Source: Oscillospiraceae bacterium
Lineage (GTDB): Bacteria > Bacillota > Clostridia > Oscillospirales > Oscillospiraceae
DNA length: 64,000 nt
Assembly (NCBI GenBank): GCA_017395085.1
Contig: JAFPWF010000003.1
Span: 1-64,000, forward strand
Direction of reading: 5' to 3'
Part shown: piece by piece, positions 1 through 20,475 of the stretch
How positions within the stretch are numbered: position 1 is the stretch's first letter
How the letters are laid out: the number at the start of each line of letters is the position of its first letter
Translations under genes and position numbers: made by a program
Notes under the pieces: model-generated
Databases searched by the model: none
What the model saw: the letters and a program-made list of their open reading frames with translations, nothing else
What the model was told of the DNA's origin: nothing

Positions 1-1
1 C

Positions 2-3871: not shown

Positions 3872-3888
3872 AACTCATGAAAAGAACT

Positions 3889-5713: not shown

Positions 5714-5758
5714 CATGGACAAGAAGCTCCAACATTTCTTACGTTTTCTTAAGTTCCC

Positions 5759-5787: not shown

Positions 5788-5824
5788 CCACAAGCTAAAC
5801 AAGATATCGGAAAGGACAAACACG

Positions 5825-7153: not shown

Positions 7154-7225
7154 GATCGGCTGGTCTTTCTCAATAGACTGGCAAAAGCTGCAACAGCGTT
7201 TGCCAGTACAGACAGTAATGAATGA

Positions 7226-7501
7226 TATATGCTCTCTCAGAAGTACCAGGCAGAGCAGGCAGAACTGGAACAGAAGATCCAAAAGTTGAAGGCGGACATG
7301 TCCTTCGTAAAGGAAACCGCAGAAAATGCGGAGAAATGGATCGAGCTGTTCAAGAAGGTCGGATACCCCGAAGAGCTGACCGCTGAGCTGCTGAACACGC
7401 TGATAGAGAAAATCCTGATCCACGAGGCCACCGAAGGAGAGTTCGGCGGCCGGGATCAGGAGATCGAGATTATTTACCGCTTTGTCGGTAAGATCGATTA
7501 G
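7226..7501 (+). pseudogene. C-terminal remnant of a large serine recombinase (DUF4368-like)
   Basis: About 90 residues match the C-terminal tail of TnpX-like large serine recombinases of clostridial mobile elements: a coiled-coil LSQKYQAEQAELEQKIQKL stretch, then ELTAELLNTLIEKILIHEA, ending YRFVGKID. An in-frame TGA lies at 7223-7225, and no catalytic Ser domain or recombinase domain is found upstream, where the lipoprotein gene sits. It is therefore a 3' scar of a lost transposon or integrative element and marks the left edge of the mobile region. Confidence 0.8.
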
Positions 7502-7510
7502 CTTATGTCT

Positions 7511-7678
7511 TTAACTGTGTGAAACCGGCCAGTAGACCTCCGTCACAAGGGCGGACTGTGCGGCGTCTCTTCCTTCGACAGCGTGGATCTCACCGAGCTT
7601 CGCAAACAGCTCGCTCTCGCTGATGGGGAAGCGGATGTCGATCTCGTGGTCGGCGTTTCTGATTCTGATTTTGATCAT
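7511..7678 (-). CDS. Short hypothetical protein, possibly a truncated mobile-element gene
   Basis: A 55-codon minus-strand frame runs from ATG 7678 to a TAA at 7511-7513 (an ATG at 7687 is also in frame, but GAAAGGA fits 7678 better). The product is acidic, starting MIKIRIRNADHEIDIRFPIS. It faces the recombinase remnant tail to tail, 9 bases apart. I do not recognise the family. It may be the N-terminal part of a longer protein whose 3' end was lost when the recombinase tail arrived. Confidence 0.4.
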   Translation of the reverse strand: MIKIRIRNADHEIDIRFPISESELFAKLGEIHAVEGRDAAQSALVTEVYWPVSHS

Positions 7679-7701
7679 GGTGCTCATTCCTTTCGTAGAA
7701 A

Positions 7702-7747
7702 ATAAAAAAGGGCTGACTTCATAGAATTGCTTCTACAAAGTCAGCCC
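7702..7747 (-). terminator. Rho-independent terminator, minus strand
   Basis: GGGCTGACTT..TAGAA and TTCTA..AAGTCAGCCC form a 17-bp stem (two mismatches) with a TTGC loop. Read on the minus strand, the stem is followed by TTTTTTATTTT. It would end transcription coming from the hsdS fragment. Confidence 0.8.
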
Positions 7748-7796
7748 ATAATTACGGTGTTATTAAGTAAGGAAGTCACGATATAGGGAATAATAT

Positions 7797-7838
7797 AACA
7801 GGCCGCTTTGATGGTTGATTTCCGTCTCGCGGCCTGTT
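7797..7838. terminator. Second hairpin downstream of the hsdS fragment
   Basis: AACAGGCCGC and GCGGCCTGTT form a perfect 10-bp stem around a loop of about 22 bases, 13 bases after the hsdS stop. Tails are weakly T-rich on both strands, so it may be a terminator or a recombination-related repeat. Confidence 0.4.
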
Positions 7839-7850
7839 TGTAATGAATGA

Positions 7851-8390
7851 TTATCTACTGTCTTTCGGAAACTGTGGTTTCAGAACAGAATGCTGTTCCT
7901 CTTCTGTTGGGAAAAACAGCGCAATGCTGCGTAACCCTTCTTGCCCAATGTTGTAATGCTGCGCACCTTGTCCCATGCGGACTATTTCTTTTCTTGCAGT
8001 TCTACTATCAAGCAAATACTTCAAAAACAACGGATCATAATTGCCTTTCCTTTTTCCACGAATAACAAAGCCGCCAAAAGCCGCAATTTTCTCATCTAAA
8101 TATACATTTGACCGACCAATATCTTCCGGCGTTTCAGAGCTTCGCTGAAAAACGATGTCTCCGTATTCTACCGAGAAGTTTCTCAATGTTTGGGTATCAA
8201 TGTCTACCAAGCCCTTGATTCTGTCATAGGTAATGTAGGTATTATTCAGAATGTCCATAACGGAAATATATTTTATGCCATTTCCATATCTCTCTGAGGG
8301 GGCATTGATCCCATTCTGAAATGTCAAGAGTTCTCCCAACTCTTTTAATTCCCAATCACTCTCAAATCCTGGGAATCGGAGTTTGGGGAC
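7851..8390 (-). pseudogene. hsdS: Half hsdS gene: one target-recognition domain, no start codon
   Basis: Read on the minus strand from about 8390, the frame gives VPKLRFPGFESDWELKELG, the classic start of a type I restriction specificity-subunit repeat. One target recognition domain follows and ends at FFPTEEEQ, after which the frame runs out. HsdS normally has two such domains and a central conserved region; here only one is present. No ATG or GTG lies between the in-frame TAA at 8418-8420 and the homology, and no hsdM or hsdR is in the window. It sits head to head with a tyrosine recombinase. Silent hsdS cassettes in phase-variable systems look exactly like this; a simple decayed remnant is the alternative. 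Confidence 0.8.
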
Positions 8391-8410
8391 ATGTGCCTCT
8401 TGACCATTAC

Positions 8411-8446
8411 ATGAGGGTTATATTGGGTGTAATATTTCTCCCTCAT
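8411..8446. promoter_or_regulatory. Inverted repeat between hsdS fragment and recombinase
   Basis: ATGAGGG (8411-8417) and CCCTCAT (8440-8446) flank an AT-rich centre immediately after the point where hsdS homology ends and about 25 bases before the recombinase start. It could be a recombinase binding site or an operator. This is inference only. Confidence 0.35.
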
Positions 8447-8470
8447 AATTACTGTGAAGGAGATGGTCAC

Positions 8471-9418
8471 ATGACTGAAAACACCCAATACAAAACGCTG
8501 GTCAATACTTGGCTAAAATCCAAACAAGCCATGATTACTGCGTCCACACATGCAAACTTCGTACTGATTGCGGAAAACCATCTGATTCCCCAATTTGGTC
8601 GAAGAAAGATCGGGTCAATCACTGAATCCGATATTCAAAAGTACATCCTGTACTTATATAACGATGGCCGCCTGGACAACTCCGGCGGCTTAACTGTTAA
8701 AACGATTCGGGATATTATTCTTGTGCTGCGTCTGTCGCTTACATATGCATACAAAGAAAAAGTGATTCCTTTGCTGAACTGGGATATGATTGAATACCCC
8801 AAGGATACTGGGATCAGGAAAGTGGTGTCGCTCTCAAAAGATGATGAGCAGAAATTGATTCAGTGCATCTATCTGCATATGAACCGGAAGACGGCGGGAG
8901 TTTTAATCGCCCTAATGACCGGGCTTAGGATCGGGGAACTCTGCGGTCTTAAGATGGGCGATATTTCTCTTGCAGCTAACACAATTTCTGTAACCCGAAC
9001 AGTTCAACGCATCTATGACAAAAGGAAAGGCACTACCTATATCCATGTTGGCCCCCCGAAAACCAAGAGCTCAGTCCGCATAATCCCGATCCCCTCGCTT
9101 CTCGGGAATATCATCAAAAAATACATGACGGATAATCCCAATCAGTATTTTCTAACAGGCAAAACTAAACCTACAGAGCCTCGTACATACCGCCAGTTTT
9201 TCGCGCGTTTCATTAAAAAATATGGTCTGAAAAAGGTAAAGTTCCATGAGATCCGGCACACCTTTGCTGTCCGTGCAATTGAGATCCCTGAGTTTGACAT
9301 TAAGTCTCTTTCAGAAATCCTCGGGCATAAGAACGTCTCATTTACTCTCAATGTCTATGGAAGTGCAAATCTACAACAGAAAATCAAGTGTATGAATCTG
9401 CTGAACGATTTATTGTAA
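8471..9418 (+). CDS. Tyrosine site-specific recombinase next to hsdS
   Basis: The 315-residue product has an N-terminal SAM-like/core-binding domain and a C-terminal catalytic domain with the tyrosine-recombinase residues: Arg153 in TGLRIGE, HEIRH with His259 and Arg262, His286 in LGHKN and the nucleophile Tyr296 in NVYG. AAGGAG lies 8 bases before ATG 8471; longer upstream frames lack such a site. Recombinases of this size that sit beside hsdS genes invert or shuffle hsdS cassettes in Firmicutes. The other plausible role is integrase of the MobA/MobC element on its right. Its stop codon lies inside a shared terminator stem. Confidence 0.9.
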   Translation: MTENTQYKTLVNTWLKSKQAMITASTHANFVLIAENHLIPQFGRRKIGSITESDIQKYILYLYNDGRLDNSGGLTVKTIRDIILVLRLSLTYAYKEKVIPLLNWDMIEYPKDTGIRKVVSLSKDDEQKLIQCIYLHMNRKTAGVLIALMTGLRIGELCGLKMGDISLAANTISVTRTVQRIYDKRKGTTYIHVGPPKTKSSVRIIPIPSLLGNIIKKYMTDNPNQYFLTGKTKPTEPRTYRQFFARFIKKYGLKKVKFHEIRHTFAVRAIEIPEFDIKSLSEILGHKNVSFTLNVYGSANLQQKIKCMNLLNDLL

Positions 9419-9471
9419 AGAAATGGTGCAGCATCGCCCGTTGTTTTGGACGATGCTGCACCATTTCTTTA
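9416..9471. terminator. Bidirectional terminator shared by recombinase and relaxase genes
   Basis: A perfect 21-bp inverted repeat (9416-9436 with 9451-9471, core TGCAGCATCG/CGATGCTGCA) with a 14-base loop starts and ends with TAAAG/CTTTA. The recombinase stop (9416-9418) and the relaxase stop (9469-9471) are the two outer ends of the stem, so one structure ends both convergent genes. Confidence 0.9.
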
Positions 9472-11025
9472 TACAATCTCAATAGAGGTTTCTCGGTCAA
9501 TCGCATCTTTTTCGGACAGAACTTTGTCAAGATTTGCGACTACAGTTTGAATCTCTTTGTGTTTTGCTCTTGCAAATGAGAACTCTTCATATTGCTCATT
9601 TTTCAAAGGGGTAAGCGATTCTTTTTCTTCTTTTAGATGCTGGAGCGTAGGAATCTTTTCACCGCCAGAAAGCTCTTTGAGTTGTCTTCGAGCTGCTTCA
9701 TACAGCGTTATTTCCGCGTCATGTTCTGCTCGGAATTGAGCTTTATTCTTTGCTCTCAAATAGTCGCTGTACGTTTTTTTGTTGGCATAGTATTGTCCGG
9801 AATACTTGATAAGAAGATTGACGGTCTTGAGCCGGGCCTCCGTTGCCTTCAGTTTTTCATGCTTCTCGTTTTTATCCTTGCCTGCCAATTCAAGAAGATC
9901 TGTCAATTCTTCTCGATTTTTGATGCCGTTCTCCTCGATAAACAAGAGTGTTTTTGCTGCCTCTTGGATGTTTGTTACCGTTACCTTTTGCGCGTACTTT
10001 GGATTCTCTTGAGCTTTTGCAATCGCCTGGAGATCAACAATTAGTTTAACAAATGGTTTAGGAGTTGCTATATCCTTCCTTGCCTGCTTCGCGTTTTTCT
10101 TAAAGAAAGCTTCAATATATGGACGATCAAAATCTGTTCCAAGCTTACGTGCGCTGATGAGTTTTTCCCTTTCAGGGATCTGATAACTAAATCGTCCGCG
10201 GCTTTCAAAGAGAAAGATCCCATAGTTTTCGAGAAGCTTATCTTTTAATTCTTCGACGGAATGGCTATCCTCCATTGAGACTGTAATCGCTTTTCGCAAG
10301 AAAGCAAGCCGCGTTTCAAATGTCGATTTTTCAGAATTATCAGAAGTGTTTGGTTCTTCTTTTGCTTGATTATCTAGAGCGACTTGTCCTCTTCTCGCGG
10401 CCCAATACTCTCGATCTGTTATTCGCACTTTGGCTGGAGAGAGAAGATCCACTTGATAAAGGTTTTCGCGTTGGCACATGAGCATCGTTTCTTGTTTTAG
10501 ATATTCGAGATAATTATCAGAAACATGATGCTTGAACCCAGCAAGAGAATCACTTGGAAGATCCATAAACGGGTTCCGCTCCACATCTTCCATACGAAGG
10601 CTGTTAATTACGATGTGGACATGAATGTTTCCTGCTCCATTGTGCCCGTCAGGATGAGTACAAACTATCGCTTGATGGCCGGGAAAATGCTCCTTGCAAA
10701 AATCAATTCCAAGCTCTTGCGCGCGCTCAACTGTCAGTCCATTGTCTTCTCGGTCACGAGGATCAAAGCTCAAAATGTAATGATGAGCTTTGATTTCTTC
10801 TTTTGATTTGTTTTTTCTATACTTCTCATTCAGCTCTGTGCAGTCACGAGGAAAAGTTTGTGGTGTGCAGTATATTCCATCAATGAGGATTCCTTCGCGC
10901 TCTACGAGATGGCCATATTCATCGCGGATTGGCTTGCTGTTTAACTCGTTGTGTTGGTACTTCAAGTATTGAACAGCATCAATATATCGAGTATTCTTAA
11001 CAGCTATGTGTTTAATTACAGCCAT
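9469..11025 (-). CDS. MobA-type relaxase / mobilization nuclease
   Basis: Relaxases nick one strand at oriT and stay covalently attached to it to start conjugal transfer. This 518-residue protein has the N-terminal relaxase domain: HHYILSFDPRD at 81-91 and the metal-binding triad HPDGHNGAGNIHVH at 124-137 (His124, His135, His137). Tyr14 or Tyr20 is the likely nicking tyrosine. The C-terminal half (about 240-518) is charged and helical. The ATG at 11025 follows GGAGAAAG and overlaps the end of mobC by 14 bases, so the two are translationally coupled. No coupling protein or type IV secretion genes are nearby, so the element is probably mobilizable by a helper. Confidence 0.92.
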   Translation of the reverse strand: MAVIKHIAVKNTRYIDAVQYLKYQHNELNSKPIRDEYGHLVEREGILIDGIYCTPQTFPRDCTELNEKYRKNKSKEEIKAHHYILSFDPRDREDNGLTVERAQELGIDFCKEHFPGHQAIVCTHPDGHNGAGNIHVHIVINSLRMEDVERNPFMDLPSDSLAGFKHHVSDNYLEYLKQETMLMCQRENLYQVDLLSPAKVRITDREYWAARRGQVALDNQAKEEPNTSDNSEKSTFETRLAFLRKAITVSMEDSHSVEELKDKLLENYGIFLFESRGRFSYQIPEREKLISARKLGTDFDRPYIEAFFKKNAKQARKDIATPKPFVKLIVDLQAIAKAQENPKYAQKVTVTNIQEAAKTLLFIEENGIKNREELTDLLELAGKDKNEKHEKLKATEARLKTVNLLIKYSGQYYANKKTYSDYLRAKNKAQFRAEHDAEITLYEAARRQLKELSGGEKIPTLQHLKEEKESLTPLKNEQYEEFSFARAKHKEIQTVVANLDKVLSEKDAIDRETSIEIV

Positions 11026-11386
11026 ATTCTTTCTCCACAGCTCGGTTAAAATCGTCGATTGACAGATCTAATTTAGTAATCTCTCGTTTTATTTCTTCTA
11101 AAACCGGTTGGGTTGTTTCGCCGCCCTGATTCAGATGACGCGCGATTTGATTAAGATTGTTCCCCAGCTTATTGATGTTACGGAGCTCTTGAAGAATCTC
11201 CCGCTCGTCGTGAATGATGATCGGGAGCTTTTTGATCGGCTGGTTAAGTAACGCTCTGCGGCAATAATCCGAAAAAGAGATACCGCATTTACCCGCTTCA
11301 TAGGAAATCATATCGTACATTTCCTGTGAGATGCGAAAACAAACTATCTTATCTTTCTGTCCAAATTCGCTTTTCGGTTTTGACAT
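11012..11386 (-). CDS. MobC-like relaxosome accessory protein
   Basis: The 124-residue protein has a ribbon-helix-helix-like N-terminus (IVCFRISQEMYDMISYEA) and the hallmark LGNNLNQIARHLNQGG of MobC proteins at about 76-91. MobC binds oriT and opens the DNA for the relaxase. It is immediately upstream of, and overlaps, the relaxase gene. The DNA before it is repeat-rich and probably holds oriT. Confidence 0.88.
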   Translation of the reverse strand: MSKPKSEFGQKDKIVCFRISQEMYDMISYEAGKCGISFSDYCRRALLNQPIKKLPIIIHDEREILQELRNINKLGNNLNQIARHLNQGGETTQPVLEEIKREITKLDLSIDDFNRAVEKEYGCN

Positions 11387-11476
11387 TATGAACTCCTTTT
11401 GATTAGCGTAAGCGGAATCAAAACTGTGACTGCTTCAAGCAGGCACCGCAATGAAATTGCAAATTGTGTTGAGGGA

Positions 11477-11534
11477 TTGGGGAGCGAAATCCCCAACAAG
11501 TGCAGCGTTCACACTTCATGAAATGAATAAGTGT
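11477..11534. other. Candidate oriT region upstream of mobC
   Basis: In the 216-base gene-free stretch before mobC, TTGGGGA/TCCCCAA (11477-11483 with 11490-11496, GCGAAA loop) and ACACTT/AAGTGT (11511-11516 with 11529-11534) form two close inverted repeats. AATACGATGCG follows. Small stem-loops next to the mobC-relaxase start are the usual position and form of an oriT. The nick site itself cannot be read with certainty. Confidence 0.45.
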
Positions 11535-11570
11535 AATACGATGCGAAACTTGCTCTAAGAGAGAGAATTA

Positions 11571-11598
11571 CCGTCCAGAACGCATTCTGGACGGTTTT
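11571..11598 (+). terminator. Perfect hairpin with plus-strand T tail
   Basis: CCGTCCAGAA, a CGCA loop and TTCTGGACGG form a 10-bp perfect stem followed by TTTTCCTTTTA on the plus strand. On the minus strand it lies just after the stop of the gene ending at 11603, so it probably also ends that operon. Confidence 0.75.
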
Positions 11599-11602
11599 CC
11601 TT

Positions 11603-11920
11603 TTACGTCCGGCGTTCTACGAACCACCGTCCGATATTGTTTCCTGTCAAGTTTGCACTTCTTTCAAAAAACAAATAGCTCTCTTTTCCTCGAACTCGGA
11701 TCTTGTATCGATCTCCTTGGCCACCGGCTCGCATCGCTGCGGCCTGGGTGATTTGCAAAACTTTATCGATCTCATATGTGACGCCATCTTCCCAAATGAT
11801 TTCTCTGGGAAGCATTACTCCGTCTTCTCGAAAATCGACTTTGACTTGCACATAAACTTTTGGACTTCTCGGTTTTGGTTGAGACTGTCCGGAGATTCTC
11901 GCATTCGTTGCTGTCTCCAT
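11603..11920 (-). CDS. Conserved hypothetical protein of clostridial mobile elements
   Basis: The 105-residue soluble protein has VYVQVKVDFREDGVMLPREI, then WEDGVTYEID, AGGQGDRYKIRV and GRWFVERR. I recognise this as a small conserved protein that recurs near LexA/UmuC-type genes in Clostridia, but no function is known to me. Its ATG (11920) directly follows the stop of the HTH gene upstream (TAAATG), so the two form an operon leading away from the SOS-like module. Confidence 0.6.
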   Translation of the reverse strand: METATNARISGQSQPKPRSPKVYVQVKVDFREDGVMLPREIIWEDGVTYEIDKVLQITQAAAMRAGGQGDRYKIRVRGKESYLFFERSANLTGNNIGRWFVERRT

Positions 11921-12160
11921 TTAGTGTTTCTCCTTTGTCTCTGTAAAAAAATCTGACATGCTTATTGAGAGCGCGATACAGATTTTTTCTATCGATTCTA
12001 CGGATAATTGGGTTCCTCTGCTCCTTGCGCGCATAAAAGTAGAATAACTCACACCGCTGCACACTGAAAGCTGATTGAGAGACATTTCATGATTGTAAGC
12101 AAGTTCCGTAGCTCTTTCGACAGTGTTCACAACCCATCCCTCCTTCAACAGAATCGCCAT
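11921..12160 (-). CDS. Small XRE-family HTH regulator
   Basis: The 79-residue protein is little more than one helix-turn-helix domain: MSLNQLSVCSGVSYSTFMRA forms the two HTH helices and LSVESIEKICIALSISMSDFF is the typical Cro/CI C-terminal helix pair. It probably represses its own operon. A tandem repeat, TGCAATTAT twice, lies directly upstream and is a candidate operator. It sits between the LexA-type repressor gene and the 105-residue conserved gene on the same strand. Confidence 0.85.
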   Translation of the reverse strand: MAILLKEGWVVNTVERATELAYNHEMSLNQLSVCSGVSYSTFMRARSRGTQLSVESIEKICIALSISMSDFFTETKEKH

Positions 12161-12170
12161 TTAATCATGG

Positions 12171-12191
12171 TGCAATTATCGTTGCAATTAT
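12171..12191. repeat. Tandem TGCAATTAT repeat upstream of the HTH gene
   Basis: TGCAATTAT occurs at 12171-12179 and 12183-12191, a spacing of 12 bases. It lies 10 bases upstream of the HTH start codon, so it is a plausible operator. Confidence 0.45.
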
Positions 12192-12225
12192 TATTCTAAA
12201 CTCTTTGGTGTCCAAAAGAACGGAC

Positions 12226-13059
12226 TCAATTGAGAACTCGACCAACAATTTCAAATCTCGTTTCAGGCGAAACGAAAATCGGATCGTATTTCTTGTTATA
12301 AGAAATCAAAACAGGTTGAAGATGAATAACACCATCAACATCCGTAAAATCATCGCGCAACTCTTCATTTGGTTCACGCAAGTTATATGACTTCATATAA
12401 CCTTGATCTCCATAAAAGAACACACCAACATCACCTGGATGGAGCTCTTTTGTTTCCTGAACCCAAACAAGTTGGCCATCATTGTATGTCGGTTCCATAC
12501 TGTCTCCTTTTACACGAAGTGCAAATTTCGCGCCGGCAGGAACAGTAGATTTCGGAACGCTAATCATTTCATAATTGCCTTCGTCAAGAAATTCGCCAGT
12601 GCCAGCAGAAACCGGTAAATAGCTCAAAGGCATATCGATGTATTCGATTTCGTGGATGAAAGGTTCCGGTGCATAACGTCCAGAAGCCACCAAGTCGTTT
12701 TCATACTCAGCGACTTTTCGACGCCCCTCTTTGTTCAGTTTTCGAGGGAGGGAACCAAAGTATTCAAATCCGTTTTCAAGATTGAGGGCATAGCAGAGCG
12801 CGACTAATTGATAACATGTGGGAGTGGTCTCACCGATTTCCCAACGCCGTACAATGTCGCGGTGAAGATTAACTCCATAAGTTCCAACGAGATATCGCAG
12901 ATCAGCACGGGAAAGTCCAAGCTCCTCTCTCGCGATCTCGATTTGTCGGCCTATAGTATTCTTTTCTTTTTCTTCATCTGCGTTGTATCTATCTCCGGTC
13001 AAAAAATCAAGAGACACAATCTTGCTGTCAGATTCATTTCTGATTTTTTTCTTTGCCAT
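12226..13059 (-). CDS. LexA/CI-type self-cleaving repressor (XRE HTH plus S24 peptidase)
   Basis: The 277-residue protein has an XRE-type HTH (about 35-100) and a C-terminal S24 peptidase domain. The expected cleavage site is Ala152-Gly153 in VSAGTG, the nucleophile is Ser187 in VKGDSMEP and the general base is probably Lys223 in GYMKSYN. Such repressors cleave themselves when RecA filaments form on damaged DNA. ATG 13059 is preceded by GGAGGG and is preferred over longer frames that run into the promoter region. It is divergent from the Y-family polymerase gene, with consensus promoters in both directions and an inverted repeat between them, so it very probably controls both. Confidence 0.9.
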   Translation of the reverse strand: MAKKKIRNESDSKIVSLDFLTGDRYNADEEKEKNTIGRQIEIAREELGLSRADLRYLVGTYGVNLHRDIVRRWEIGETTPTCYQLVALCYALNLENGFEYFGSLPRKLNKEGRRKVAEYENDLVASGRYAPEPFIHEIEYIDMPLSYLPVSAGTGEFLDEGNYEMISVPKSTVPAGAKFALRVKGDSMEPTYNDGQLVWVQETKELHPGDVGVFFYGDQGYMKSYNLREPNEELRDDFTDVDGVIHLQPVLISYNKKYDPIFVSPETRFEIVGRVLN

Positions 13060-13086
13060 GATGATCCCTCCTTCATGTGTAAGCCA

Positions 13087-13115
13087 AGTATATATAAGGA
13101 AACATCGCTTGTCAA
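13087..13115 (-). promoter_or_regulatory. Consensus promoter of the LexA-type repressor gene
   Basis: On the minus strand TTGACA (13115-13110), a 17-base spacer and TATACT (13092-13087) lie about 28 bases before the start codon. Confidence 0.8.
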
Positions 13116-13127
13116 GAGAAAAGCTAC

Positions 13128-13164
13128 AAATTAGTGACATATGTCCTCTTGTAATCACTAATTT
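13128..13164. promoter_or_regulatory. Inverted-repeat operator between repressor and polymerase genes
   Basis: AAATTAGTGA (13128-13137) and TCACTAATTT (13155-13164) are perfect 10-bp inverted half-sites separated by 17 bases. The right half lies inside the spacer of the polymerase promoter, so a bound repressor would block RNA polymerase. The left half lies just upstream of the repressor's own -35. Confidence 0.65.
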
Positions 13165-13177
13165 ATTGCATTATAAT
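13149..13177 (+). promoter_or_regulatory. Consensus promoter of the Y-family polymerase operon
   Basis: TTGTAA (13149-13154), a 17-base spacer and TATAAT (13172-13177) lie 31 bases before the start codon. The spacer contains an operator half-site. Confidence 0.8.
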
Positions 13178-13208
13178 AGCCTCGCACTCGACGAGAGGAG
13201 GTGAGGCT

Positions 13209-14450
13209 ATGCAGCAGCGTGTGATCTTGCACAGCGATATGAATTCATTTTACGCATCTGTCGAAGCAATGCTTGATCCTACACTCAAGGGGAAAGCAAT
13301 CGCAGTCTGTGGATCGACAGAAGAGCGTCACGGGATTGTTTTAGCAAAATCTGAGTTGGCAAAAAAAGCTGGCGTTAAGACTGGAATGGTTTCCTGGGAA
13401 GCTCGACAGAGATGCCCGAACTTAATCATGGTTCCGCCCCAATATGATGAGTACCTGAAGTATTCCAAGCTCGCCCATGAAATCTATTATCGCTACACTG
13501 ATCTCGTTGAACCGTTTGGAATGGATGAATGTTGGCTCGATTGCACGAACAACCTTCACGGTTTTGACTCTGCCCTTTCTCTCGCTGAATCAATTCGTAA
13601 AGCAACGCGCGAAGAGCTTGGCCTTACCGTCAGCATTGGAGTGTCCTTTAATAAAATCTTTGCAAAGCTCGGAAGCGATTTGAAAAAACCGGATGCTATC
13701 ACCTGCATTACGCAAGAAAACTTTGAAGATGTTGTGTGGCCACTCGCTGTGTCAGAAATGATCTATGTTGGTCATGCAACTGAGGCGAAGCTCGCAAAAT
13801 ACGGAGTTCATACAATAGGTGAACTCGCTGCTACGCCCCCTCAACTCCTTATCAATTGGTTTGGCATCAATGGACTAAAGCTGTGGCGATTTGCAAGTGG
13901 CACTGACGAGAGTCGGGTAATGCAAAAAGACTTTGTTAGCCCTGTTAAATCTATCGGCCACGGCATTACATGCACAGCGGATCTTGAAAATGATAACGAA
14001 GTACATAACGTAATGCTCGAACTCTCACAGGATGTGGGGCACCGTCTCCGCGTTCACGAACTCTGCGCAACAGGAGTACAGATTTGGATTCGCTCGAATG
14101 ATTTGTCTGGAGAGCAGTTTCAATGTCGGCTTCCTGTGCGAACACAACTCCCTTGTGAGATTGCTGCCGCTGGTTTCAAATTATTCCATGAGCGTTATAA
14201 GTGGAATAACAATGTTCGAGCAGTCTGCATCAGAGCAATCAATCTCGTTCCCAAAAATGAAAATGAACAGCTTACTATTTTTGATGACATAGCGTGGCGG
14301 GAACGTAGAGAGCGTTTGGAAGACACAGTAGAAATCCTACGATCAAGATTTGGAAAACAGGCAATAACCTACGCCTCGTTGCTTGGCGATTTGAAAATGC
14401 CAGGTGATGGCCGCGAAAAGGTTAGAATGCCGGGGCTTATGTATCAGTGA
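13209..14450 (+). CDS. Y-family translesion DNA polymerase (UmuC/DinB-like)
   Basis: This error-prone polymerase copies past damaged bases. The 413-residue protein has the Y-family N-terminal motif HSDMNSFYASVE (Asp10), the steric-gate region and the catalytic pair Asp106-Glu107 in MDECWLD. Little-finger sequences follow, with KSIGHGITC, through to the C-terminus. The start codon follows GAGAGGAGGTGAGG. It is the first gene of an operon divergent from a LexA-type repressor, which implies DNA-damage induction. No umuD is present; the S24 repressor is the only UmuD-like protein nearby. Lower GC than the flanking chromosome agrees with horizontal origin. Confidence 0.95.
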   Translation: MQQRVILHSDMNSFYASVEAMLDPTLKGKAIAVCGSTEERHGIVLAKSELAKKAGVKTGMVSWEARQRCPNLIMVPPQYDEYLKYSKLAHEIYYRYTDLVEPFGMDECWLDCTNNLHGFDSALSLAESIRKATREELGLTVSIGVSFNKIFAKLGSDLKKPDAITCITQENFEDVVWPLAVSEMIYVGHATEAKLAKYGVHTIGELAATPPQLLINWFGINGLKLWRFASGTDESRVMQKDFVSPVKSIGHGITCTADLENDNEVHNVMLELSQDVGHRLRVHELCATGVQIWIRSNDLSGEQFQCRLPVRTQLPCEIAAAGFKLFHERYKWNNNVRAVCIRAINLVPKNENEQLTIFDDIAWRERRERLEDTVEILRSRFGKQAITYASLLGDLKMPGDGREKVRMPGLMYQ

Positions 14451-14461
14451 GGAGGTCAAGA

Positions 14462-14659
14462 ATGATATTTCGCAACGACTACAGTTCGCATGTGGCGAAC
14501 TCTTTTACCCCATGTTATGGATGCACTTGCGCAGGGTGCGCTTACTGCGATTATTCTGAGGAGCGCCTATTATCGCTCGATGATGCGGAAACCAGAATGA
14601 AGATTAGCAGCATACCAAATCTTGCCGTTATAAATATTGCAAGGGTAGCTTTCGCGTGA
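14462..14659 (+). CDS. Small Cys-rich protein in the SOS-like operon
   Basis: The 65-residue protein contains the cluster CYGCTCAGCAYC at residues 18-29, with five Cys, followed by DYSEER. The spacing resembles a metal-binding knuckle. GAGGAGG at the polymerase stop sits 7-8 bases before ATG 14462, so it is translated as part of the operon; an earlier in-frame GTG at 14447 overlaps that site. I do not recognise the family. Its fixed place between the polymerase and the ImmA-like peptidase suggests a role in the damage response. Confidence 0.7.
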   Translation: MIFRNDYSSHVANSFTPCYGCTCAGCAYCDYSEERLLSLDDAETRMKISSIPNLAVINIARVAFA

Positions 14660-14675
14660 TTTGACAGGAGAGAAC

Positions 14676-15410
14676 ATGAGTCGATATTTGAGCTTACAAG
14701 ATTTGGAGATCATTGCGGACGGAGTTACCCAAAAATACTTTCAATTCCTTCAGGCAAAACCGGGCGCCCTCCCTCCCATTGATCCAGTCCTTCTTGCAGA
14801 GGAAATCATTCACCTTAATGTCCGTTTTCTTCCTCTTTGCTCTGATGGTTCAATCCTTGGATTAACTGCATTTGACGATATCGACTTGAGTTTTTTTATG
14901 TCAGACGGGAGTATTACAACGCAGCATATTTCTAACAGTGATGTGGTAATAGACTCTGACTTACAATCAAACGGAGTTCCTGGCCGTTGCAATTTTACGA
15001 TAGCACATGAAACAGGCCATCAGATCCTTTATAAACTTTTCCCCGCAGACTACGGAATGGTCTGCAATCGCAAAACACATATTCTGAATAGGAGGAAAAA
15101 AGAATCTCATAATTGGGTTGAATGGCAAGCTGATTCTTTAGCTTCGTTTATCATGATGCCGAGGTTATTGATCAGCGAATCCATGTCTCGCTTTGGACTC
15201 GGAGAAAAAGTCGAAATGCTCAATAGGGTATTTCGTCCTACTGTATTTCAACACTTTTGTGATATGGCAACATACCTCGGCGTTTCAAAACAAGCACTTA
15301 GTATCCGGCTAAAGCAATTAGGATATCTGGATATAAACCGAGACTATCTATCAAACCCATATGAGCTTCTTAGAATCTACTGTGATGAATCTGAACTTCA
15401 GCAGTTATAG
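14676..15410 (+). CDS. ImmA/IrrE-family metallopeptidase
   Basis: The 244-residue protein carries the zinc motif HETGH at 111-115 (FTIAHETGHQIL) and a downstream acidic ligand in EWQADSLASF (about 149-153), as in ImmA/IrrE peptidases. In ICEBs1 and Deinococcus these enzymes cleave an XRE-type repressor to switch on mobility or damage genes. AGGAGA lies 6 bases before ATG 14676. It shares an operon with the Y-family polymerase. Possible targets are the small HTH protein (12160) or the LexA-type repressor (13059). Confidence 0.9.
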   Translation: MSRYLSLQDLEIIADGVTQKYFQFLQAKPGALPPIDPVLLAEEIIHLNVRFLPLCSDGSILGLTAFDDIDLSFFMSDGSITTQHISNSDVVIDSDLQSNGVPGRCNFTIAHETGHQILYKLFPADYGMVCNRKTHILNRRKKESHNWVEWQADSLASFIMMPRLLISESMSRFGLGEKVEMLNRVFRPTVFQHFCDMATYLGVSKQALSIRLKQLGYLDINRDYLSNPYELLRIYCDESELQQL

Positions 15411-15594
15411 AGAGCTCAAAAAAGAAACATCTCAGCCACCTAAAACCGTGTCTATCGGCGCAGATATTCTTTGTCCAGATTGCAATAAAAAGATTGGCGT
15501 AAAAAAGTCTGCATGTAGCGGGTACTTAGAGTTTAAGTGCCCTCGCTGCCAAAAAACATACATACGGAATCTGTCGCTTCGTCGTGCAATGTAG
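15385..15594 (+). CDS. Zinc-ribbon protein overlapping the peptidase gene
   Basis: The protein of about 69 residues has CPDC and CPRC pairs about 27 residues apart, a small zinc ribbon like those of Com-type translational regulators or transcription factors. Its proposed start lies inside the 3' end of the ImmA-like gene in another frame, which makes translational coupling likely, although the ribosome binding site is weak; an ATG at 15361 is also in frame. It is the last gene of the operon before a terminator. No closer function is visible. Confidence 0.65.
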   Translation: MNLNFSSYRELKKETSQPPKTVSIGADILCPDCNKKIGVKKSACSGYLEFKCPRCQKTYIRNLSLRRAM

Positions 15595-15691
15595 TATTCC
15601 GTAATAACCAAATAGTTTAATAGCAAACGCGAGCACCGAGCAACGGGCCTTTGCATGGCTGCGGTCATGCACTGATGAAACAGCACCAAAT

Positions 15692-15747
15692 AGCCGGGCG
15701 GCGTCACAGGATAACTTTATCCTGCTGACACTGCCCGGCTTTTTTTA
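15692..15747 (+). terminator. Terminator of the polymerase operon
   Basis: AGCCGGGC (15692-15699) and GCCCGGCT (15733-15740), with an inner AGGATA/TATCCT stem, are followed by seven T. The 97 bases between the last gene (15594) and this stem contain short stems but no gene I can see. Confidence 0.88.
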
Positions 15748-15897
15748 TTTCTCCAAATAGAATATCGAGCCTGAGTTGCAATAGGGCAAAGGATATTTCT
15801 TATACGACGCGCGCAGAAATGAGATTTGCAAAAAGTCGTAGGAAATACCCTCGACCTTGTGCGCTCATTTTCAGGCTGCAAGTTGAGATTCCGATGA

Positions 15898-16027
15898 ATG
15901 GACTGTCCTTTGCCCCGCTTACAGGCAGAAAGGACAGTCCATGAAAAATAGATGGGAGTGTTATCTCTCCGAATACCCGTGATCTCCGGTTTGTTCCCGA
16001 CAAACAAAACCATTCAAAGGAGATCAC
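15898..16027 (+). promoter_or_regulatory. Structured leader that may hide the ribosome binding site
   Basis: Two strong inverted repeats lie before the gene at 16032. ATGGACTGTCCTTT (15898-15911) pairs perfectly with 15929-15942. GTGATCTCC (15979-15987) pairs with GGAGATCAC (16019-16027) and encloses GTTTGT/ACAAAC. The second stem contains the AAAGGAG site of the gene, so the start may be shut unless the stem opens. The gene-free stretch 15748-15897 upstream is also rich in imperfect repeats. Confidence 0.55.
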
Positions 16028-16031
16028 GCAA

Positions 16032-16532
16032 ATGAGTCCGTTTAATTACCAAGCTGAAAAAGCACATTTTGAAAAAATGTGGGCTCGCCTTGCAATTGAA
16101 TACAGAGAAGCGGGCATGTCTTCAGATGCAATCGAAGAAATGAGGAAATTCGATTGGGAAGAGTTTAAGCAACGCCGAAACTGGCGCTTGCATGAAACAC
16201 TCTTTTCTGAGTTGAGACCAACGGAGGAATCCGATGATCCTGATCCTACCATTCCAAGTCCTTCACTGAGCGAAGATTTAGTCACCACGGACAAGTACGC
16301 AGACACACCAAAGAGCAACCAATACCATTGGCTTAAAGAAATCACAAGCCCTGACTTGCTTAATCAGCTTCTGTTGCTATCTGATTCCGATCTTGCCCTG
16401 ATAAATGCTTATTTGTTTGAGGGGCTAAGCCAGAACGAAATCTCTGAAAGGTTGGGTGTCAATCAGTCGGTCGTGTCCAGAAAGATCAAGAGAATAAAAA
16501 AACTTTTAAAAAATGTGCAGGCTATGTCATAA
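16032..16532 (+). CDS. Sigma-70 region 4-like protein of an integrative element
   Basis: The 166-residue protein starts with a helical segment (HFEKMWARLAIEYREAGMSSD), has an acidic Pro-rich linker, and ends in an HTH: LINAYLFEGLSQNEISERLGVNQSVVSRKIKRIKKLL. This is the layout of the sigma-factor-like proteins common in clostridial conjugative and integrative elements, where they act as element-specific regulators. Region 2 of a full sigma factor is absent. AAAGGAG before the start is inside a predicted stem. It precedes the xis/int pair by 480 bases and may control it. Confidence 0.8.
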   Translation: MSPFNYQAEKAHFEKMWARLAIEYREAGMSSDAIEEMRKFDWEEFKQRRNWRLHETLFSELRPTEESDDPDPTIPSPSLSEDLVTTDKYADTPKSNQYHWLKEITSPDLLNQLLLLSDSDLALINAYLFEGLSQNEISERLGVNQSVVSRKIKRIKKLLKNVQAMS

Positions 16533-17012
16533 AAACGCCTTTCCCACTGCCTAGTAAGTGAGGGGATATTTTCCCTTACTGATGACAACAGAATAGTTCA
16601 GCATCTCAGTTACGTTCCGTGGAGATGGAGCGACAATCTTTCTGCCGCCAAGACCCGGCTTTCCGGTGAGCGATCTACAGAGAAGTGAAACAGGCTTATT
16701 GGTACGGCCTGATCGCGATGAAGTCTGCTCGGGATAATGATACTCCTGTCCAGCCACAGCTTCACGCAATGGGGGCAGCTCGGAGAGACACTCGGAGAGG
16801 TAAAACGGCCTGTGACGCATCGACCGGATGCGGGCTGGGATGTTCCCGATACAGTCAGGGGCGCGAGCGGCAAATATGACTGGCAGAGAAATGAACTTCC
16901 AAATACGAAGACAATTGTCTTCAGTATGAAAACTATGTGGCTGAGGTTCCCTGGGATCTCAGCCATATCCTTTTGTACTGAAGCAATGCAGAACAGGAAA
17001 GGAGAAGGAGCA
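16533..17012. other. 480-base gap before xis with no clear gene
   Basis: I see no credible gene here: open frames on either strand are short, lack a ribosome binding site and match nothing I know, and the GC content is higher than in the genes to the left. Near its right end there is a perfect 16-bp palindrome, GAAGACAATTGTCTTC (16907-16922), and a hairpin GGCTGAG/CTCAGCC (16939-16964). These suit regulation of xis or Int/Xis binding. Part of the gap may be decayed coding sequence. Confidence 0.5.
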
Positions 17013-17237
17013 ATGGAAAAACTGTTCACAAGAAAAGAGGCTGCGGGAATCCTGGGAATCAGCCTTGCGACCCTTGATCTTGCCAGAAACAGCGGGCAGA
17101 TCACCTATGTCCAGTACGTAGAGAATGGATGTGTCTTTTTTACAGAGGCCGGCATTCAAGAATTCATTGCTCGGTCAACTCACCGTGCAGCTCCGAAGAA
17201 GGAAAACATGATGACCTACCGCAAGCGTCGGGCCTAA
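17013..17237 (+). CDS. xis: Excisionase (Xis), MerR-like HTH
   Basis: The 74-residue basic protein starts MEKLFTRKEAAGILGISLATLDLAR, a winged-helix DNA-binding motif of the MerR/excisionase type, and ends in a Lys/Arg tail. Xis proteins bend attachment-site DNA so that the integrase removes rather than inserts the element. GGAAAGGAGAAGGAG precedes the ATG. The integrase start is 93 bases downstream on the same strand, the usual Tn916-like order. Confidence 0.82.
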   Translation: MEKLFTRKEAAGILGISLATLDLARNSGQITYVQYVENGCVFFTEAGIQEFIARSTHRAAPKKENMMTYRKRRA

Positions 17238-17330
17238 TCGACACACCTTGCGACAACATTGCGAGCTTTGCGCTCTTCTGATAAAAATGAAGCATCAGCG
17301 CTGATAACACTCAAAAAGGAGGTGCTGGAA

Positions 17331-18527
17331 TTGGCTAAGAGAAAAGCAATTCCCAAGTATGGAACCGTCATGTTAGGCGGTATTGAATATTACCGTACCC
17401 GTATCGAAGATGCGGATGGCAAACGGGTCGCCCTGTATGGCAGAACCCGCGAGGAATTATATGATAAGGTAGAAGAAGCCAAGCGCCAGATTGAAGAGTG
17501 CTCTTTTCGGCGCGAGACTCCCACTGTAAAAGAGTATTGTGAGAAGTGGCTCCTGATGCAGTCCGCCCATATTCGGGCAACCACTCTTCTTGACTACACA
17601 TCGAAGGTTAAAAACTATATCATCAAGCCCCTTGGTCATATGTACATGGCCGACGTTACTCCCGATGATATCAAACTGGCCGTTGTTCCCGCAGCAAAAA
17701 AATCGGAATCAGTTTATCGGTCTGTAAACATGCTGATGAAGTGTATCTTCTATTCTGCGTGGGATAGCCATGTTATTGACGAGAACCCGACGGAAAAGCT
17801 CTCCGCTAAAGGTGGCGTTCCGCAGAAGACCAAAGAAGCCCTCACCGATGAGCAGGTCATTCTGCTGCTGGATTCGATTAAAGGTCTTCCGCCTTATGTC
17901 TTTGTTATGCTGGGCCTTTACGCTGGCCTTCGCAGAGAAGAAATCCTTGCCCTCAAGTGGGATTGCGTTTTCCTCGATGTTGAAGCACCGTATCTCTCGG
18001 TGAGAAGGGCGTGGCATACTGAGCACAACAGGCCGGTCATTCTTACTGAGCTCAAAACAAAAGCAGCCAGCCGAGACGTGCCGCTGCCGAAGTGCCTTGT
18101 AGAGTGCTTGAAGGAAGCAAAGGAAAAATCCACTTCTGAATATGTGGTTGCCAATAGCGAGGGAGAGCCGCTGTCTTATACACAGTTCAAGCGTGTCTGG
18201 CAGTACATCGTAACCCGGTCTACAAAAGAGCGCACCTATGTGAGATACGTTAATGGAGAGAAGATCAAACATACGATCTCGCCGGTGCTCGGAGAAGTTG
18301 CCCCTCATAACGGCAAGGTTACCTACAGCATGGACTTCCAAGTTACGCCTCACCAGCTCCGTCATACCTACATCACGAACCTGATCTATGCACAGGTTGA
18401 TCCGAAGACCGTTCAGTACTTGGCAGGCCACGAAAACAGCAAGATTACTATGGACATTTACGCCAAGGTGAAGTATAATAAACCCAAGGAACTGGCGGCT
18501 GTAGTGAACGGCGCATTCGGTCAATAA
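17331..18527 (+). CDS. int: Tn916-type tyrosine integrase
   Basis: The 398-residue integrase has an N-terminal arm-binding domain (from KYGTVMLGGIEYYRTRI), a core-binding domain and a catalytic domain. That domain has Arg in AGLRREEI, HQLRH (His and Arg), His in LAGHEN and the nucleophile Tyr in MDIYAKV. The start is taken as TTG 17331 because AGGAGGT sits 7 bases before it and MAKRKAIPKYG is a normal N-terminus; an upstream frame from 17259 lacks a site. It follows xis and ends 117 bases before a displaced 3' end of rpsI, so its target is very probably the 3' end of rpsI. Confidence 0.93.
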   Translation: MAKRKAIPKYGTVMLGGIEYYRTRIEDADGKRVALYGRTREELYDKVEEAKRQIEECSFRRETPTVKEYCEKWLLMQSAHIRATTLLDYTSKVKNYIIKPLGHMYMADVTPDDIKLAVVPAAKKSESVYRSVNMLMKCIFYSAWDSHVIDENPTEKLSAKGGVPQKTKEALTDEQVILLLDSIKGLPPYVFVMLGLYAGLRREEILALKWDCVFLDVEAPYLSVRRAWHTEHNRPVILTELKTKAASRDVPLPKCLVECLKEAKEKSTSEYVVANSEGEPLSYTQFKRVWQYIVTRSTKERTYVRYVNGEKIKHTISPVLGEVAPHNGKVTYSMDFQVTPHQLRHTYITNLIYAQVDPKTVQYLAGHENSKITMDIYAKVKYNKPKELAAVVNGAFGQ

Positions 18528-18644
18528 TACGGCTGACGGTGATTAAACCTCCGAGAAAAATTACGGGTTAATTTAGGGGTTAATTTTTCGGAGACCTTCA
18601 AAAAAGCCTGTAAAATCAAGGGGTCTGAGGCCTGGTGCTTTATG
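18528..18644. other. Probable attachment-site arm with repeats
   Basis: Between the integrase stop and the rpsI fragment lie two direct copies of GGGTTAATTT, inside an imperfect hairpin CTCCGAGAAAAATTA/TTAATTTTTCGGAG (within 18550-18596). Direct repeats of this kind are typical integrase arm sites, and the hairpin may also end int transcription. Confidence 0.55.
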
Positions 18645-18695
18645 AAGTACGGTCTCAAAGCGGCAAGACGTGCTCCTCAGTTCAGCAAGCGCTGA
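18645..18695 (+). pseudogene. rpsI: Displaced 3' end of rpsI (ribosomal protein S9), probable att core
   Basis: In frame, 18645-18695 reads KYGLKAARRAPQFSKR followed by a stop, the nearly invariant C-terminus of ribosomal protein S9. Codons before it do not match S9. The rest of rpsI and its usual partner rplM are nowhere in the window. An element that enters the 3' end of a gene carries a copy of that end to keep the gene whole and leaves the old end stranded at the far junction. A typical terminator follows 20 bases later, as expected for the original gene end. Confidence 0.85.
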
Positions 18696-18715
18696 TTGCA
18701 AACTCAAAACCTTTC

Positions 18716-18748
18716 AAAACCCGGAAGCCTGTCGGTTTCCGGGTTTTT
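18716..18748 (+). terminator. Original rpsI operon terminator
   Basis: AAAACCCGGAA and TTCCGGGTTTTT form a stem with a 10-base loop and a T run, 20 bases after the stranded rpsI stop. Confidence 0.88.
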
Positions 18749-18781
18749 CTGATTATCACGGTGAAAGGCTGCGGCTTTCTG

Positions 18782-18810
18782 TTGATAAAACCGATCTGTT
18801 CCGTTAATAT
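18782..18810 (+). promoter_or_regulatory. Predicted promoter of the hydrolase gene
   Basis: TTGATA (18782-18787), a 17-base spacer and TAATAT (18805-18810) lie 48 bases before the start codon. Confidence 0.6.
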
Positions 18811-18857
18811 GATGTCATGGCAGAAGAGCATTATGAATACAACCGCGAGGTGCAAAT

Positions 18858-19775
18858 ATGATCTGTGAAAGAATAACCGTCGGAGCGGGGACGGATTATC
18901 CGCTGCTCGGAATGCTGACGTTCCCTGACAGCCTCTCAAAGCCTGTGCCGGCTGTGGTTCTGGTGCATGGCTCCGGTCCCAGCGACATGGATGAAACGGT
19001 CATGAAACTGACGCCGTTCAAAGACCTCGCACAGGGCCTCGCGGAACGCGGCATCGCTTCGCTGCGGTATGACAAGCGCAGCTTCGCGCACGCAAGGAAA
19101 ATGGCAAAAGCGGATGTCACCGTGAAGGAAGAAACCATTGACGACGCTCTGCTGGCTGCGGAAGTCCTGAAAAACGATCCGCACATCAACCGTGACCGCG
19201 TTTTTCTTCTCGGGCACAGCATGGGCGCCATGCTCGCCCCGAGAATCGACGCCGAAGGCGCTGATGTCAAAGGCCTGATTCTGATGGCCGGAACCCCGTA
19301 CCGGCTGGAAGAGGTCGTATTGCGGCAGCTGAAGCAGGCGAACGGCAGCAATCCGCTTCTGAACTGGATCGTCGGGCAGGAATACCGGGTCATGGCAAAA
19401 AAGTTCAGCGGTCTCTACCGGATGAGCGACGATGAAGCGAAGAAAAAGAAATTCGCCGGGAATCTGTCCCTCTACTATTTCAAGGAGATGGGGCAGAAAA
19501 CTGCGGCGGACTACCTTCTGGAGAGCAGCAAGCCGGTTCTGATCCTGCAGGGAGCGCGGGACTTTCAGGTCCTTGCGGAAGATGACTACAGGCGGTTTCA
19601 GGAACTGCTTTCCGGCCGGGAAAACACCCGGTTCAGACTGTACCCCGAACTGAACCACGCCTTCGTCGAGGCAATTTACGACGATATCCTGAAAGCATCA
19701 AAGGAATATCGTGTGGAGCGGCATATCGGTGAAACCGTGATCGGCGATATCGCATCGTTTATTCTGGATTCCTGA
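18858..19775 (+). CDS. Alpha/beta-fold serine hydrolase
   Basis: The 305-residue cytoplasmic protein has the alpha/beta-hydrolase layout: oxyanion-region HGSGPSDMD at 37-45, nucleophile elbow GHSMG (Ser121), Asp235 in LQGARDFQV and His267 in ELNHAF. It resembles the acyl-CoA thioesterase/dienelactone-hydrolase-like esterases of gut Clostridia; the substrate cannot be told. It has its own promoter and terminator and so is a single-gene unit. It is the first intact chromosomal gene after the stranded rpsI end. Confidence 0.88.
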   Translation: MICERITVGAGTDYPLLGMLTFPDSLSKPVPAVVLVHGSGPSDMDETVMKLTPFKDLAQGLAERGIASLRYDKRSFAHARKMAKADVTVKEETIDDALLAAEVLKNDPHINRDRVFLLGHSMGAMLAPRIDAEGADVKGLILMAGTPYRLEEVVLRQLKQANGSNPLLNWIVGQEYRVMAKKFSGLYRMSDDEAKKKKFAGNLSLYYFKEMGQKTAADYLLESSKPVLILQGARDFQVLAEDDYRRFQELLSGRENTRFRLYPELNHAFVEAIYDDILKASKEYRVERHIGETVIGDIASFILDS

Positions 19776-19799
19776 CGCTGCAGAACTCAATCCCATTCT

Positions 19800-19828
19800 A
19801 CCCGGAAGAGCAAATCTTCCGGGTTTTT
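19800..19828 (+). terminator. Terminator of the hydrolase gene
   Basis: ACCCGGAAGA, a GCAAA loop and TCTTCCGGGT form a perfect 10-bp stem followed by TTTT. Confidence 0.9.
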
Positions 19829-19850
19829 ACGCTGATTCTTAACGGGAGTG

Positions 19851-19878
19851 TGAAACTTTTTCTCCTGTTTTGCGTCAT
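19851..19878 (+). promoter_or_regulatory. ECF-type promoter of the sigma factor operon
   Basis: TGAAAC (19851-19856), a 16-base spacer rich in T, and CGTCAT (19873-19878) match the ECF promoter pattern (AAC at -35, CGT at -10) rather than a sigma-A promoter. It lies 39 bases before the ECF sigma gene, which suggests self-activation. Confidence 0.65.
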
Positions 19879-19917
19879 ATGTGGTGAGAACGTTCTTGAA
19901 CACAACGGAGGATACGA

Positions 19918-20475
19918 ATGGACGACGAAGCGATCCTGAACCTTTACCGGCAACGGGACAGCCGTGCCGTAGCCGAAACCGAAGCCAAATACGGCCGGCT
20001 GTGCCTTTCGGTTGCAAGGAACATCTTATCAAACCGCGAGGACTCCGAGGAATGTGTCAACGACACCTGGCTGCACGCCTGGAACGCCATCCCGCCCGAA
20101 TGGCCCCTGCGCTTTTCCGCCTGGCTGAGCAGGGTGACAAGAAACCTTGCCGTCAGCCGTCTGCGGGAAATCCGGGCACAGAAGCGCGGCGGAGACGAGA
20201 TCCCGCTGGTACTGGAGGAACTGGATGAATGCATCCCCGGCAAGCCCGATCCTCAGAAGGCAGTGGAACAGAAAGAACTGCAGGATGCGATCAACCGCTT
20301 CCTGGACGGGCTGGATTCCGCGGTCCGTGATGTTTTTGTAGCCAGATACTTCTATGCTGCATCCCACAGCGAACTGAGTGCACGTACGGGATGGTCGGTC
20401 GGAAAGGTCAAAACCGTTCTTCGCCGAACCCGGATAAAACTCCGTATTGCACTGAAGGAGGATGGCTTATGCTGA
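19918..20475 (+). CDS. ECF-type RNA polymerase sigma factor
   Basis: The 185-residue protein has sigma region 2 (about 10-75, with EDSEECVNDTWLHAWN) and region 4 (about 120-180, with SHSELSARTGWSVGKVKTVLRRTR as HTH), separated by a linker. Such factors direct RNA polymerase to stress or envelope genes and are held by a membrane anti-sigma factor. GGAGG precedes ATG 19918. Its stop overlaps the start of the next gene (ATGCTGA), the standard coupling of an ECF sigma with its anti-sigma. An ECF-like promoter stands upstream. Confidence 0.93.
   Translation: MDDEAILNLYRQRDSRAVAETEAKYGRLCLSVARNILSNREDSEECVNDTWLHAWNAIPPEWPLRFSAWLSRVTRNLAVSRLREIRAQKRGGDEIPLVLEELDECIPGKPDPQKAVEQKELQDAINRFLDGLDSAVRDVFVARYFYAASHSELSARTGWSVGKVKTVLRRTRIKLRIALKEDGLC

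Follow-up and report, generated by a model that had tools for sequence, protein, structure and literature searches.

The locus examined here raises the question of how the last codons of rpsI, the gene for ribosomal protein S9, came to lie just behind an integrase gene. The window, meaning the whole stretch of 64,000 nucleotides that was analyzed, is contig C74 from its first base in a draft assembly of 86 contigs (84.5% complete), and its left edge is the contig end.

The stranded S9 tail and the intact rpsI gene

At 18645 to 18695 of the forward strand, KYGLKAARRAPQFSKR and a TGA stop codon (18693 to 18695) form the exact C-terminus of S9. When the genome's own S9 was used as a tblastn query against the window, 18645 to 18692 matched residues 121 to 136 at 100% identity (E = 1.1e-5), and no second S9 was detectable there, the next-best match having an E value of 0.098; nor was L13 detectable in the window (tblastn, best match E = 0.45). 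At the peptide level, the whole window yielded one S9 tail on the plus strand and none on the minus strand, and a DNA repeat of the tail inside 1 to 20000 is absent from the 20 largest of 47 repeat families. Base-shuffled DNA gave no such tails by chance (0 in 2.79 Mb at ≥7 of 11 residues plus stop). The tail starts 117 bases past the stop of the integrase open reading frame at 18527, with two GGGTTAA repeats in between. These results agree with the sequence-only reading, which had described an S9 C-terminus and stop at this distance from the integrase, with no other S9 or L13 gene in the window, no second copy of the tail at 1 to 17 kb, and a normal terminator behind it. That terminator, at 18716 to 18747 (plus strand), is a hairpin followed by U's with a folding energy of -22.8 kcal/mol (z = -4.3), equaled by none of 200 shuffles, and it resembles terminators found 3' of rpsI in relatives. 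It matches DNA of five of them (G064, G074, G004, G033, and G077) at 78 to 81% identity over 103 to 114 bp, and we regard it as being of the rpsI type, if not certainly ancestral; some of the five may carry insertions after rpsI. In G004, a decayed S9 tail lies 3.6 kb past rpsI.

The junction sets the right-hand limit of the island and shows that some of the island, on its left, is not in the window. The GC content in 2-kb windows is 42 to 45% at 8 to 17 kb, 53 to 57% at 1 to 8 kb, and mostly 51 to 59% beyond 19 kb. A hydrolase gene beside the tail was considered as a usual neighbor of rpsI and found no support in the rpsI loci of relatives, where it is not adjacent to rpsI. Its close homologues in four relatives besides the own genome (66 to 75% identity) are never on the rpsI contig, and no convincing S9 tail was found near them.

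The sole S9 gene found in the assembly lies on contig C80 (2058 to 2468, minus strand), with rplM before it. The last 47 bases of this intact rpsI equal 18645 to 18691 at 46 positions. C80 ends about 2 kb past rpsI, and what lies there is an element-like left arm with its own terminator (z = -4.7), four GGGYTAA repeats, and a ParB gene. An intact rpsI had been predicted for the other junction, and the rplM-rpsI pair, its matching end, and the arm that follows it on C80 are what was expected. The left arm also contains an exact copy of a 19-bp repeat, GGGTTAATTTAGGGGTTAA, which lies at 18565 to 18583 (plus strand) in the right arm of the window and is a candidate arm site for the integrase.

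In two genomes of the same genus, G015 and G049, rpsI is followed by the left end that is seen on C80, and both have the same right end with an S9 tail on contigs other than that of rpsI. The right end of G015 is 97% identical to the window over 18399 to 18697, and the G049 integrase is 95% identical to that of the window; G049 and the L013 record, whose rpsI ends are identical, are apparently one assembly. In both genomes the right-hand tail uses synonymous codons other than those of the tail at rpsI, a set that we call host type.

Integrase relatives and the probable site of strand exchange

The gene at 17259 to 18527 (plus strand), whose true start may be further in, encodes a tyrosine integrase with a SAM-like core-binding domain and a catalytic domain (PF00589, E = 1.1e-22) carrying R-K-H-R-H-Y, the catalytic motif list of such integrases; its earlier description as Tn916 type stands. 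A scan of contigs gave 277 encoded relatives, and the loci of the best 80 of these were examined for S9 tails, called at ≥8 of 11 residues plus stop. A strict pattern applied within 900 nt of the first integrase found tails at 16 of the 80 loci, and a looser score applied past the second integrase found them at 71. The tail thus follows the last integrase in 71 of the best 80 of 277 relatives, and in 67 of these 71 its stop is 155 to 189 nt past the end of the integrase match, with longer distances at L034 (271 nt), L052 (602 nt), L066 (1,007 nt), and L069 (2,653 nt). Four of the nine loci without a tail (L048, L050, L053, and L055) have just 6 to 405 nt of DNA left, and L053 sits among the first copies of integrase pairs in the tree described below. 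The other five (L022, L033, L036, L038, and L067) are true misses with enough downstream DNA. No reverse-strand S9 tail was found at any of the 80 loci, and only one has an upstream tail, which is the own rpsI of L023. In the genome of L023 (G159), a single contig carries both rpsI and the tail, at a distance of 9.4 kb, and on the complete chromosome of Hungatella hathewayi the distance is 67.1 kb. The proposal that the integrase inserts at the rpsI 3' end is supported by the recurrence of this junction in its relatives, which point to the rpsI end as a widespread site of gene exchange between families of gut Clostridia.

Among the loci read in the genus, those of at least 9 of the 91 genomes (G000, G015, G027, G042, G045, G049, G051, G063, and G088) combine the integrase with the tail. 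GGGYTAA is found in the 120 nt before the core at 21 of 71 loci, with 30 copies against 1.05 in shuffles. A mini-ORF that starts with an ATG at 18642 in the window was rejected as a general feature: only 30 of 71 attR cores have ATG, GTG, or TTG at that position, and TTG accounts for 21 of the 30, mostly in near-identical elements. The near-identical elements of L070 to L091 have hosts named from several families, with Faecalibacterium, Blautia, Anaerotignum, and Amedibacillus among these hosts, a distribution that points to a recent wide spread.

The relatives also amount to a natural experiment that places strand exchange within 8 bases without bench work. At the right junction of 20 near-identical elements from different records (L077 and L090 having been excluded beforehand), 59 of 60 columns before the core and five more bases are invariant; variation in the core begins at the wobble base of the Lys codon, and later wobble positions vary too. 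At the left junction, 7 of 10 attL sequences of the near-identical group have one common left end, and five of these seven (L082 and L087 being the others) are identical from the Gly wobble position to the stop, with differences among the five at the Lys wobble. The variation at the two junctions places the exchange within AARTAYGG, which is AAGTACGG at 18645 to 18652 (plus strand) of the window, where the near-identical elements turn into host DNA. We infer from these alignments that strand exchange takes place in AAGTACGG, across the K-Y-G codons near the S9 end. At four ends outside rpsI (L033, L036, L022, and G010), the element sequence is preserved to the end of AAGTACGG, or of the stretch corresponding to it, and gives way there to DNA that is not S9. 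These are insertions at other sites, except that G010 may instead be a chimeric contig end; the G010 case consists of the last 110 bases of L232. At L038 and L067, no anchor was found for locating the element end. A crossover at CTCAA, suggested by C80 and the window alone, was dropped once the near-identical relatives and the non-rpsI ends had been compared. The short exchange stretch resembles the 6-bp coupling sequence described for Tn916 (PMC12084037).

Integration model and its alternatives

We consider it very probable that 18645 to 18695 is the attR of an integrative element, an ICE or an IME, that is site specific for the 3' end of rpsI. The integrase would recombine the circular form with rpsI inside AAGTACGG, and the element would bring along the last codons of S9, with a stop and a terminator, as a copy of its own. 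Upon insertion, the element's copy would complete rpsI at attL, on C80, so that an essential gene stays whole, and the host's last codons, stop, and terminator would be cut off from the gene and left at the right junction, which is the one in the window. The junctions, the repeated rpsI end, the repeat common to both arms, the arrangement in dozens of relatives, and the change point from element to host are there to be read directly; C80 and C74 are probably the ends of a single element and not of two related ones. Counting against the reading, the junctions come from separate contigs of a draft that is 84.5% complete, and nothing joins C80 and C74. The five true misses, the occurrence of GGGYTAA before the core at only 21 of 71 loci, and the hydrolase gene that relatives do not have beside rpsI weigh on the same side. 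With base 1 of the window being a contig end, the middle of the element would be unassembled.

The part of the element in the window carries a relaxase with a MobA/VirD2 domain (9469 to 11025, minus strand; PF03432, E = 9.2e-16) and a MobC/NikA-like relaxosome protein (11012 to 11386, minus strand). No conjugation or mating-pore genes were recognized in the 18.6 kb of the window or the 2.1-kb C80 arm, and the element may be either an ICE or an IME. Family matches identify a LexA/CI-like repressor with an S24 self-cleavage domain (12226 to 13158, minus strand) and a UmuC/DinB-type DNA polymerase (13209 to 14450, plus strand). These are followed, all on the plus strand, by an ImmA/IrrE-like protease of family M78 (14661 to 15410; PF06114, E = 2.9e-5), a sigma-70-like regulator with weak family matches (16032 to 16532), and a small helix-turn-helix protein (17013 to 17237) that is probably the excisionase, a weak assignment (HTH_17, E = 2.5e-4, below the Pfam cutoff, and no NCBIfam match). 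Integrase and excisionase may still be able to excise the element, and the repressor and the ImmA-like protease may control excision, by analogy with ICEBs1. A second tyrosine recombinase, of another kind, is encoded at 8321 to 9418 (plus strand) and is unmatched in the sister contig of G049. There the relaxase-to-integrase blocks match at 76 to 86% DNA identity, and to the left of them our reading of the open reading frames shows a restriction system and a resolvase in place of the second recombinase.

How far the element extends to the left is less certain. At 1 to 7153 (plus strand) lie genes for GtrA, a glycosyltransferase, FtsH, a 495-residue lipoprotein, and a further ORF, all of which are possible cargo. 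Behind them, at 7227 to 7528 (plus strand), is what remains of the 3' end of a gene for a large serine recombinase (DUF4368), which marks a junction in the mosaic; relatives of this recombinase are common in the genus. The lipoprotein-like protein (4125 to 5612) has some match in 67 of 91 genus genomes, many of them weak and several per genome. The sequence-only reading had left a choice between an island that starts beyond the left edge, with ftsH and the glycosyltransferase as cargo, and a rearranged one; since the window starts at base 1 of the contig, the element does reach past that edge if the assembly is right, and the two genes may be cargo. A serious contender, although one to which we give somewhat less than even chances, is that integration is real and 1 to 7150 is chromosome joined by deletion, inversion, or misassembly, the left part of the element being lost or elsewhere. 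The GC content of 53 to 57% at 1 to 8 kb, compared with 42 to 45% in the island, speaks for such a join, as do the break marked by the serine-recombinase remnant and the different surroundings in which G061, G040, and G007 have related genes for the lipoprotein or for GtrA and the glycosyltransferase; the GtrA-glycosyltransferase matches in G034 and G007 are at 86 to 92%. Conservation argues the other way. The segment from 1601 to 5161 (the end of the glycosyltransferase, FtsH, and most of the lipoprotein) is 94% identical to a contig of G049, and 3613 to 5716 matches two G045 contigs, in pieces, at 93 to 97%, whereas the own rpsI is 88% identical to that of G049 and 85% to that of G045. One matching piece in G045 is about 5 kb from a relaxase, and by position 1 to 7150 must be inside the element if assembly and orientation are right. 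We keep 1 to 7150 as possible cargo.

The pairing of the two ends has an alternative of its own, which we think improbable but worth keeping in mind: two or more related elements may stand in tandem at rpsI, so that the C80 left end and the window's right end come from different ones. This would concern the pairing only, the window segment still being the attR of an rpsI-targeting element. An array could produce left ends such as those of L076, L084, and L089, which after rpsI are unlike those of their seven fellows despite near-identical right ends, and further S9 tails do follow attR in G049. The own genome offers two more points in the same direction. Its stranded tail equals the C80 copy in synonymous codons over 38 bases, unlike those of G015 and G049, which also counts against the main reading, and contig C83 has a second ParB and a ConjTn1549-like module. 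Since the own tail has element-type codons, a copy with the host-type pattern was not found in this genome; the stranded copy combines these codons with a host-like TGA and terminator. The 19-bp repeat, identical in the left arm of C80 and the right arm of the window, favors a single element, as do the shared left and right ends of G015 and G049 and the lack of a second tail in the window. We infer that the own host allele had already been converted to the element type, by earlier occupancy or conversion, the alternative being a tandem array or the involvement of two elements. The ConjTn1549-like conjugation module, at C83:1-40123, is related to that of Hungatella and apparently belongs to a second element; we do not claim it as the missing middle of the element, given its own ParB and the absence of any link from C83 to C80 or C74.

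A survey of the genus bears on the last alternative. S9 was found in 72 of 91 genomes (the own and 90 others), and 63 rpsI loci from 62 genomes were read downstream over 0.03 to 19.8 kb each. Loci without sign of this element are present among them, and no strain with the window's right flank directly after rpsI was found among the genus genomes. At 10 of the 63 loci, additional S9 tails lie past rpsI, and the DNA read there showed no relative of the integrase; two or more GGGYTAA repeats lie in the first 400 nt after rpsI at 10 of 63. The sequence-only reading had named a repeated rpsI end beside an intact rpsI, in strains lacking the element, as evidence against integration; the 10 extra-tail loci partly supply this elsewhere, some of them being short repeats of another kind, and they leave unexplained a tail that keeps a constant spacing to an integrase. 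Units of about 120 to 172 bp, each an S9 tail with its terminator and a hairpin, follow rpsI or attR in G090 (L155), G039 (L268), G059 (L258), G060 (L158), and G049 (L174, about 16200 to 16450); those of G060 form a tandem array, and some units contain GCGGCGGGCGGCC, the reverse complement of the rpsI end. That the window's tail is such a duplicated rpsI end, and no integration scar, is highly improbable despite the extra tails at 10 of 63 loci and the short units of G090, G039, G059, and G060, as it is not beside rpsI, lacks the hairpin unit, has the spacing to a targeted integrase that is usual (67 of 80 loci), and has host-type counterparts at exactly this position in two close relatives.

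Paired integrases and known rpsI systems

A second, homologous integrase stands in tandem at 60 of the 80 loci examined (the best 80 of 277 relatives), and where a tail was found at paired loci it stands after the second integrase. Tandem, co-inherited pairs at the right end occur within L028 to L091 and also at G042:C28, G045:C27, G051:C24, and G088:C44. In a tree of 83 different integrase sequences, one side of a single branch is made up of the distal copies (36 rows, support 100/100), and proximal copies nest with single-type integrases, the type to which the window integrase belongs (96% identical to that of L013). Identity within pairs is 53 to 61% (27 pairs). The catalytic R, K, H, and R are kept in all 83 sequences, and the second H and the Y are altered, by gaps or changes, only in 3 of the 36 distal copies (L038, L048, and L067). 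Why there should be two enzymes for one site is a question that these pairs raise. Pairs of distantly related tyrosine recombinases are described for the MTnPi elements of Prevotella (review, PMC5704250); a brief literature search, which is thin evidence of absence, returned no description of tandem integrases in elements such as those studied here.

From the tree and the junctions we draw a tentative picture, one that we would rate only just short of even: a large lineage of elements, spread across families of gut Clostridia, would have specialized on the last codons of rpsI, mostly with co-inherited integrase pairs that stem from one old duplication and have intact catalytic residues. Their insertions would overwrite the host's S9 tail and terminator, element-type codons would accumulate in host rpsI genes, and the stranded tail of the window would perhaps be a converted host allele.

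Insertion into rpsI as such is already known, from Streptococcus and from one Roseburia ICE; the position of the cut is unusually clear from the relatives studied here. The remark that streptococcal ICEs insert into the 3' ends of ribosomal protein genes was correct, as rpsI is a listed target (PMC4701971), and IMESag-rpsI is an rpsI-targeting IME of about 9 kb with a MOBV relaxase (PMC5090054). These systems likewise combine a tyrosine integrase with the rpsI 3' end, but they have Streptococcus hosts and are ConjICESt3-type ICEs or the ~9-kb MOBV IME; the likeness is one of integrase type and target (PMC4701971, PMC5090054). A gut Clostridia element named as lying in rpsI is ICE_RhoA2-183_rpsI of Roseburia hominis, named as coming from FirmiData (PMC12904643); the main text of the FirmiData paper, in the portions available, does not mention rpsI (PMC9092696).

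The integrases of Tn916 and Tn1549 have the same integrase domains as the window enzyme. The matches of the latter to PDB sequences include 6EMY, "Int protein", over 52 residues only, which we take to be Tn1549 Int. Tn916 differs in inserting at many sites (PMC12084037), whereas the family of the window integrase is found mostly at rpsI.

A further close parallel is the 67-kb element of Hungatella hathewayi DSM 13479 (CP102274.1), which is likewise bounded by rpsI and an S9 tail, with a ParA/ParB-like left end and an integrase right end. It differs from the element in the window in having two tandem integrases, conjugation-type genes, and a relaxase that is near the left end and not near the integrase. 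According to a reading of its open reading frames backed by sequence matches, not by family searches, it encloses ParA-, ParB-, VirD4-, VirB6-, and VirB4-like proteins, a relaxase, and a 3,049-residue protein. A still greater span may exist at L029 (KE159636.1), where about 153 kb, perhaps with several elements, would separate rpsI from the tail, provided that the rpsI found on G167:C1 belongs to this contig.
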